From Acidobacteriota bacterium (GTDB lineage Bacteria > Acidobacteriota > Holophagae > Thermotomaculales > Thermotomaculaceae), in contig JAADJC010000039.1 in assembly GCA_013151025.1 (NCBI GenBank), positions 1 to 58,260 on the forward strand: a DNA stretch of 58,260 nt. The letters are read 5' to 3'. Numbering within the stretch: position 1 is the stretch's first letter; each line of letters begins with the position of its first letter. A program made the position numbers and the translations under genes. The notes below the pieces were generated by a model. It did no database searches. It saw only the letters and a list, made by a program, of their open reading frames with translations, and was not told the DNA's origin. Below, in pieces: positions 1,751 through 40,268 of this stretch.

Positions 1751-3964
1751 TCAGTTGTGAACGACACGAATCCTTCCAGTACCGGAGGTGAAACGGGCAA
1801 TTTGTGCCGCCGCACGGACACCGGCGGTTTGCAGTGCGTTGACCAGCGCGGTTGCGTCCGATTCCGACACCGCTATCAATAGTCCGCCGGAGGTCTGGGC
1901 GTCACAGAGCAGCAGCCGCTCGGCCATGGGTATGCTTTTGTTCCAGTCGGTGAGTTTTTCCGTGTGGGCAAGGTTGTTTCGGGTGCCGCCGGGAATCACG
2001 TCTGCCATTGCCAGTTCACGGGCACCGGGGAGTACCGGTATCGATTCCGCCTGGATTTCCACGTCCACGGTGCCGTCACCCAGCATTTCCGCAAGGTGCC
2101 CGACAAGGCCAAAGCCGGTAACGTCGGTACAGGCGTGAACCGTGAATTTTGCCATTGTTTCAGCCGCCTTTTGGTTCAGTTCCGCCATTGTTTCCACTGC
2201 CGGGGCGAAGGCGGCGGCATCTATGGCTCCCTGTTTCAGCGCCGTGGCGAGGATTCCGGTTCCGACAGCCTTTGTCAGTATCAACGCGTCCCCCGGCCGG
2301 GCGCCGGTATTGGCCAGGATTCGATCCGGATGCACTGTTCCCACCACTGCCATTCCGAATTTGGGTTCGGTGTCATCCACGGAATGGCCGCCGAGGACAA
2401 AGATTCCCGCTTCCTTTGTTTTACTTCTTGCTCCCGCCAGAATCCGGTCCAGCACATCCACCGGCAGCCGGTCCACCGGAAAGCCGACAATGTTCAGCGC
2501 AAAAAGCGGTTTTGCCCCCATGGCGTAGATGTCGGACAGTGCGTTGGCCGCCGCAATGGCACCGAACTGAAACGCGTCGTCTACCACCGGGGTAAAGAAA
2601 TCCACCGTGGCAACCAGCGCGGTATCTTTGCTGATTTTATATACGGCGGCATCATCCGTTGTATCGGCTCCCACCAGTACGTTGGGGTCATCGGGAACCG
2701 GCAGTTTTTTCAGGATTTCTTCCAGCAGTTGAGGCTGAATTTTGCAGGCGCAGCCCATTCCCCGGGTAAACCGGGTCAATTTCACCGTTTCGCCCGCAAC
2801 GGGATTTGCGGCGACGGAGGCTCCGTCCGGCTGAAGTCGCCGTACCGCTGCCACTATTTCTTTCGCCGCCCGGTCAATTTCGCCTTCGGAGGTCATCCGG
2901 CCGGTGGAAAACCGAACCGTTCCCATGGCGTATTCCACCGGTACTTTCATGGCTTCCAGTACCGACGAAACGTCCACCCGGTCGGTGTGGCAGGCTGCTC
3001 CGGCGGAAGCCGCCACTCCAGTTAATTCCGATAGAAGGGTGTTGGCTTCTACCCCCCGAAAGGAGATGCTTAAGGTATTGGGCAGGCGTTTTTCCGGATG
3101 CCCGTTCACCCGGCAATCCGGGATTTCCCGTTTCAACGCGTGTTCCAGCCTGTCCCGGAGTGCCGCGGAGTGCGCCGTGTCTCTTTCAAGCCGGTTCAGT
3201 GCCAGCTCGCAGGCTTTTCCCAGCCCGGCGATTTCCAGGATGTTTTCGGTTCCGGCACGCCATCCCCGTTCGTGGTCTGCCCCGTGAACCAGTTTTTCCA
3301 GTTTCACGCCGCTTCGGATGTACAAGGCACCGATTCCCTTTGGCCCGTAAAACTTGTGTCCGGCCACGGACAGAAGGTCCACGCCCAAATCACCCACCCG
3401 GACCGGGATTTTCCCCACTGCCTGGGCCGCGTCCGTGTGCGTCAGGATGCCCCGTTTTCGGGCCAGTGCGGCAATTTCGGTAATGGGCTGAATGGTGCCG
3501 ACTTCGTTGTTTGCCGTCATGATTGTGATGAGAATGGTCTGCGGAGTAATGGCGGCTTCCACGTCCGCCACCGAAACCATTCCGTTTTTATCCACCGGCA
3601 GCACCGTTACCCGGAATCCGTTTTTTTCAAGAAATCGGCAGACTTCCAGAACCGCCGGATGTTCCACCGCTGACGTGATGATATGATTTCCCTTTTCCCG
3701 GTACGCGAAAGCCGCCCCTTTGATGGCGTAGTTGTTGGATTCGGAGCCGCCGCTGGTAAACACCACTTCGTCCGGCCGGCACGAAAGGAGGGCAGCCACC
3801 TGATGTCTGGCGCTTTCCACCGCTTTTTTCGCTTCCAGGCCGAAAGAATGGGAACTGGACGGATTTCCGAATACGCTGTCAAGGAAGGGGCGCATGGCTG
3901 CCGCAACCGCCGGGTCAATGGGGGTTGTGGCGTTGTAGTCCAGATAAATCGGGGCTTTTTTCAT
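1751..3964 (-). CDS. cysteine desulfurase / selenide, water dikinase fusion (NifS-SelD)
   Basis: Single 737-residue polypeptide joining two selenium enzymes. Residues 1-380 are a NifS/IscS-type class V aminotransferase: H101, the PLP-binding K204 in AGHKFYGPKG and the catalytic C325 in AGAACH. It can release sulfur or selenium from Cys/Sec. Residues 394-737 are selenide, water dikinase (SelD), which makes selenophosphate from selenide and ATP. Its glycine-rich start has the catalytic pair C405/K408 in GMGCACK, with Cys rather than Sec. NifS-SelD fusions are known in some anaerobes; channelling selenium between the domains is the usual inference. It is the first link of a selenocysteine pathway in this window. 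FMN reductase lies 8 bases upstream on the same strand. No selA, selB or tRNA-Sec is in the window. Confidence 0.95.
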   Translation of the reverse strand: MKKAPIYLDYNATTPIDPAVAAAMRPFLDSVFGNPSSSHSFGLEAKKAVESARHQVAALLSCRPDEVVFTSGGSESNNYAIKGAAFAYREKGNHIITSAVEHPAVLEVCRFLEKNGFRVTVLPVDKNGMVSVADVEAAITPQTILITIMTANNEVGTIQPITEIAALARKRGILTHTDAAQAVGKIPVRVGDLGVDLLSVAGHKFYGPKGIGALYIRSGVKLEKLVHGADHERGWRAGTENILEIAGLGKACELALNRLERDTAHSAALRDRLEHALKREIPDCRVNGHPEKRLPNTLSISFRGVEANTLLSELTGVAASAGAACHTDRVDVSSVLEAMKVPVEYAMGTVRFSTGRMTSEGEIDRAAKEIVAAVRRLQPDGASVAANPVAGETVKLTRFTRGMGCACKIQPQLLEEILKKLPVPDDPNVLVGADTTDDAAVYKISKDTALVATVDFFTPVVDDAFQFGAIAAANALSDIYAMGAKPLFALNIVGFPVDRLPVDVLDRILAGARSKTKEAGIFVLGGHSVDDTEPKFGMAVVGTVHPDRILANTGARPGDALILTKAVGTGILATALKQGAIDAAAFAPAVETMAELNQKAAETMAKFTVHACTDVTGFGLVGHLAEMLGDGTVDVEIQAESIPVLPGARELAMADVIPGGTRNNLAHTEKLTDWNKSIPMAERLLLCDAQTSGGLLIAVSESDATALVNALQTAGVRAAAQIARFTSGTGRIRVVHN

Positions 3965-39995: not shown

Positions 39996-40005
39996 CTGCT
40001 CCTTC

Positions 40006-40020
40006 AGCCGCAACGCGGCC
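40006..40020 (-). promoter_or_regulatory. SECIS-like hairpin for the second UGA
   Basis: On the minus-strand transcript, GGCCGC-GUU-GCGGCU forms a 5-bp stem plus a G-U pair with a three-base loop starting with G. The loop begins 18 nucleotides after UGA codon 68 (40035-40033), within the spacing reported for bacterial SECIS elements, and lies beyond the stop codon. Confidence 0.55.
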
Positions 40021-40023
40021 GGG

Positions 40024-40236
40024 TCAGACGCCTCATGTGCCGCCTTCAAAGCCGATGCTTACACGGCCTTCGGTTACGATGACAGGGACCTGGCGGATTC
40101 CGCCGGAGAGCCGCAACATTTCGTTAAGTTTATCCGGGTCTTTTTTTACGTTGTAATAGGTTGCTTCCGGGTACGCCGACCTGGCGCCGTCGGTATGCGG
40201 TCATCCGTGCTTGCCGTAGATAATCCGTTCCGCCAT
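40024..40236 (-). CDS. glutaredoxin-like selenoprotein, Uxx-star family, two in-frame UGA
   Basis: A 70-residue thioredoxin-fold protein visible only if UGA is read as selenocysteine (U). The N-terminus reads MAERIIYGKHG-U12-PHTDGAR: a beta strand followed by a U-P-H-T active site in the place of the glutaredoxin CxxC. The middle has YNVKKDPDKL and a cis-Pro strand (GGIRQVPVIV), as in NrdH/GrxC-type proteins. The end reads GFEGGT-U68-GV-stop, i.e. Sec, two residues, stop, the feature that names this family. GGGAGGG lies 5 bases before the ATG and an extended -10 promoter lies about 35 bases upstream. Coding continues with glutaredoxin-like sequence past both UGAs, which chance would not give. 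Hairpins follow each UGA. SelD is encoded in the same window. The redox partner is unknown. It is convergent with the thioesterase and divergent from the sigma operon. Confidence 0.9.
40176..40193 (-). promoter_or_regulatory. SECIS-like hairpin for the first UGA
   Basis: Transcript CCGAC (40193-40189) pairs with GUCGG (40180-40176) around an 8-base loop starting GG. Outer bases allow partial extension. The loop begins 12 nucleotides after UGA codon 12 (40203-40201), slightly closer than most bacterial SECIS elements. Confidence 0.45.
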
Positions 40237-40268
40237 TTTTCCCTCCCGTACAATATGAATTCCCAAAC

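Follow-up and report, generated by a model that had tools for sequence, protein, structure and literature searches.

The locus and its reading frame

In the window, by which we mean the whole stretch of 58,260 nucleotides of Acidobacteriota DNA analysed here, the minus strand carries a small gene at positions 40024 to 40236. The gene has 70 codons followed by a UGA stop (codon 71, 40024 to 40026), and its ATG lies 4 nt downstream of a ribosome-binding site read from the sequence as GGGAGGG (40241 to 40247, minus strand). Two further UGA codons stand in the same frame on this strand, one at codon 12 (40201 to 40203) and the other at codon 68 (40033 to 40035). When both are read through, the translation is MAERIIYGKHGUPHTDGARSAYPEATYYNVKKDPDKLNEMLRLSGGIRQVPVIVTEGRVSIGFEGGTUGV (M1 to V70). 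This product has the active site U-P-H-T, the cis-Pro segment QVPVIV and the C-terminus G-G-T-U-G-V-stop.

An initial annotation of this DNA had described the frame, the ribosome site, the ATG, the UGA codons and the glutaredoxin-like motifs U-P-H-T, QVPV and U-G-V-stop, all of which prove to be exact. It had also expected standard gene calling to miss the gene, and the gene is indeed missing from the listing of open reading frames (ORFs) under the standard code. A real gene for a 70-residue redox-type protein, with a frame that ordinary gene callers break up, is thereby confirmed.

Family assignment and fold

With Cys placed at the UGA positions, the window protein scores 104.4 bits (E = 2.7e-30, cut-off 72), well outside what chance would give, in a profile search against NCBIfam NF041114, "UXX-star selenoprotein family 1". 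It scores 74.5 bits against NF041212 (Uxx-star, cut-off 66) and is also above the gathering score of Pfam Glutaredoxin. The proposed Uxx-star, glutaredoxin-like assignment is thus borne out by two profiles, both over their curated cut-offs. UXX-star families 2 and 3 (NF041211 and NF047338) have the same overall architecture, but the match to them is weaker (48 and 44 bits) and stays under their cut-offs of 100 and 97. Family 2, moreover, is catalogued with one Sec only, as against the two UGA codons of the window gene.

The family NF041114 is the Distant Grx-like protein 1 of a 2026 review, with the motif UxxT and two Sec (PMC13188914), and the same Distant Grx-like protein is given with UxxT in a 2022 review (PMC9312934). 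The window protein has in common with it the length, the UxxT motif, the two Sec and the C-terminal U-x-x-stop. While the genus of the window differs from the rest of NF041114 in missing four residues after helix 1 and in having GFEGG instead of GFGG, neither is a defining difference. Judged by these profile scores and motifs, the window gene is a genuine further member of the catalogued UXX-star family 1 and is not new in kind. The double Sec is no discovery either, because two Sec are already documented for NF041114 (PMC13188914, Table 1).

The AlphaFold model of the window protein (pLDDT 94.4) has a glutaredoxin-like fold, with Sec12 placed just ahead of helix 1. The closest solved folds found by Foldseek are glutaredoxins (TMq up to 0.78), and the profile search concurs. 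The glutaredoxin cGrx1 (PDB accession codes: 7c10, 7c12) shares the Grx fold, the cis-Pro and an active site where helix 1 begins, with 30% identity over the aligned part only. The chain of the window protein stops just past the conserved GG motif, two residues after Sec68, whereas ordinary glutaredoxins extend into further helices. We know of no C-terminal Sec in cGrx1.

Homologues and conservation of the two UGA codons

Within the window's family the gene occurs in three of nine genomes, all three from the window's genus. Across the phylum, matches over the cut-off occur in 43 of the 396 sampled genomes, with two in-frame TGA codons in nearly all of them. The named relatives come from Acidobacteriota MAGs and from two deltaproteobacterial MAGs, and no phage record of the collection, when searched, encodes the gene. 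The homologue set used here has 42 sequences, the window's own included and loci L027, L073, L089, L092 and L093 left out, and every one of the 42 matches NF041114.

In this set position 12 is UGA in 38 sequences and Cys (TGC or TGT) in the other four, while at position 68 all 42 have UGA and none has UAA or UAG. The initial annotation had read both UGA codons as Sec and had proposed a comparison with homologues at these two positions; the comparison finds both UGA positions conserved, with Cys and Sec alternating at position 12. No Cys takes the place of Sec68 among the 42 family 1 homologues.

The next question is whether UGA68 could simply be the stop, in which case UGA12 alone would be read as Sec and the product would be a single-Sec protein of 67 residues. 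Another stop does follow within three codons, and little protein would be lost either way. The final stop two codons past position 68, however, is TGA in 35 homologues, TAG in 4 and TAA in 3 while position 68 itself stays UGA, and this variation argues that UGA68 is not a stop. The residues between UGA68 and the stop are also conserved (mostly GV), all four of the Cys12 homologues keep UGA68, and a more distant relative that ends in GRGCYI-stop has Cys at the place matching Sec68. Together with the hairpin after UGA68 described below, these points leave a real stop at codon 68 very improbable.

Among more distant Grx-like relatives, those from three genomes (L095, L096 and L097) have the active site CPYC or CPHC and end in G-R-G-UGA-x-V-H-stop, with three codons instead of two between the C-terminal UGA and the next stop. 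Such a UGA may mark a variant that uses Sec, or may simply terminate translation.

The two congeners allow the recent history of the gene to be followed. Third codon positions account for 24 of the 33 differences between the window and congener G008 and for 25 of the 44 between the window and congener G006, and UGA12 and codons 68 to 71 are identical across all three. This pattern indicates purifying selection on the gene since the split from its congeners. Both congeners have synteny with the window, and among the homologues the positions and strands of the neighbouring ORFs vary; because the adjacent ORFs differ in this way, no function can be read from the gene neighbourhood. In the two deltaproteobacterial MAGs (L026 and L027), a same-strand ORF downstream of the UXX-star gene starts with MKDANLDSIIEKAIANEEEANQFYLKL, or nearly so, and its product, judged by eye, has a ferritin-like or rubrerythrin-type resemblance.

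SECIS candidates

The textbook position of a bacterial SECIS is within the coding region. In the bSECIS consensus one of the first two loop bases is a G, with G or U often coming next, and the distance from the UGA is 16-37 nt (PMC13188914). Two putative hairpins in the window fit this loop and distance model, with comparative support that is strong for the second and weaker for the first. Putative SECIS 1 (40163 to 40198, minus strand) lies in the coding region and has the loop AGGUC (40178 to 40182), 18 nt after UGA12. Putative SECIS 2 (40005 to 40021, minus strand) is a 7-bp hairpin with a GUU loop, 18 nt after UGA68, and it falls wholly in the 3' UTR because the stop comes two codons after that UGA. 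Single-sequence folding of the two window regions gives a stability no greater than that of shuffles, and for this reason comparative tests are used.

For the 42 genes, the hairpin after UGA68 has a mean score of 12.8 against 8.0 when shuffled (mean z 2.2), and a strong hairpin is present in 31 of 42 homologues, compared with 1-6 of 42 at six control offsets. The hairpin after UGA12 is barely above shuffles (mean z 0.5). The loop after UGA12 is CGTGA in 27 of the 38 UGA12 genes, and the Arg codon at +7 is CGT in 29 of these 38, versus 13 of the 164 other Arg codons (8%) in the same genes. The p-value for this CGT enrichment, 2e-17, is only indicative because the test was picked after the pattern had been seen and the sequences are related and non-independent. 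None of the four Cys12 genes retains CGTGA, and the window's genus has AGG-TCG at the SECIS 1 site in its place, which yields the loop AGGUC. The synonymous conservation of the Arg codon after UGA12 suggests a SECIS in the coding region. We consider it likely that UXX-star family 1 genes, at about 70 codons, are served by two distinct bacterial SECIS, the second lying wholly past the stop as a natural bacterial 3'-UTR SECIS.

The Sec decoding genes

We turn to the decoding machinery, for which the initial annotation had proposed a genome search for selA, selB and selC. The search succeeds for selB (357 bits in the profile search, intact), and neither selA nor selC (tRNA-Sec) is found in the window's assembly, which is 92% complete. 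A Sec-type SelD frame (G000:C25:3796-4725) is also intact and has a TGA in its active site (GUAGK); the genome therefore has a second Sec gene.

In congener G008, the sequence on one side of selA can be aligned to contig C88 of the window's genome as far as the contig's final bases, stopping about 30 bases before the selA match, and since the alignment runs to the contig end, selA is placed in an assembly gap. The contig that matches the selC flank of the nearest congener extends beyond that place and shows no tRNA-Sec, which leaves selC either elsewhere and unassembled, or absent. The Rfam tRNA-Sec matches in the window's own genome were rejected as Ser, Leu, Tyr, Gly and Arg tRNAs. By contrast, tRNA-Sec, highly conserved in sequence, is present in each of the family's eight other genomes, and selA in six of these eight. 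We read the missing selC as a probable assembly gap.

The same genome also encodes, at 1751 to 3964 on the minus strand of the window, a protein of 737 residues in which a NifS-like cysteine desulfurase (residues 6-377) is fused to a Cys-type SelD (residues 395-703), and which coexists with the separate Sec-type SelD.

The missing selC and selA would fit a gene remnant, or a pseudogene in decay, in a lineage whose Sec decoding has been lost, but with selB and the Sec-type SelD frame intact, the selA-flank alignment cut off by the end of C88, and purifying selection since the split from the congeners, this reading is very improbable.

Proposed model and role

The best explanation, to which we give a probability of about 95%, is that the window gene encodes a two-Sec UXX-star family 1 selenoprotein with a minimal glutaredoxin fold, in which each UGA has its own SECIS. 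According to this model, Sec12 would occupy the active-site position of U-P-H-T and Sec68 would stand three residues from the C-terminus, just past the GG motif. Each UGA would be recoded by SelB and tRNA-Sec through its own bacterial SECIS, the one for UGA12 being predicted inside the coding region and the one for UGA68 wholly in the 3' UTR. We infer that Sec is actually inserted at both UGA sites.

In glutaredoxins the GG motif sits near the active site. Because the GG motif before Sec68 would lie near the active site here as well, it is conceivable by analogy that a diselenide might link Sec12 to Sec68, or that the two might bind a single metal ion. The protein probably acts in redox chemistry, through a selenol/selenenylsulfide or a diselenide, or else binds metal(loid)s. 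Metal binding has been put forward for UXX-star proteins, without proof, in the 2026 review (PMC13188914).

Significance

The finding supplies an Acidobacteriota genome with a gene that had been missed, and it illustrates how small selenoproteins fragmented by standard calling can be picked up with readthrough profiles. Two points of interest are left: the function of the family, and the arrangement of two SECIS, the second of them in the 3' UTR. Since its second signal lies beyond the coding sequence, this compact two-Sec layout offers a good natural test of the way SelB deals with two UGA codons and of how near a stop SelB can work.
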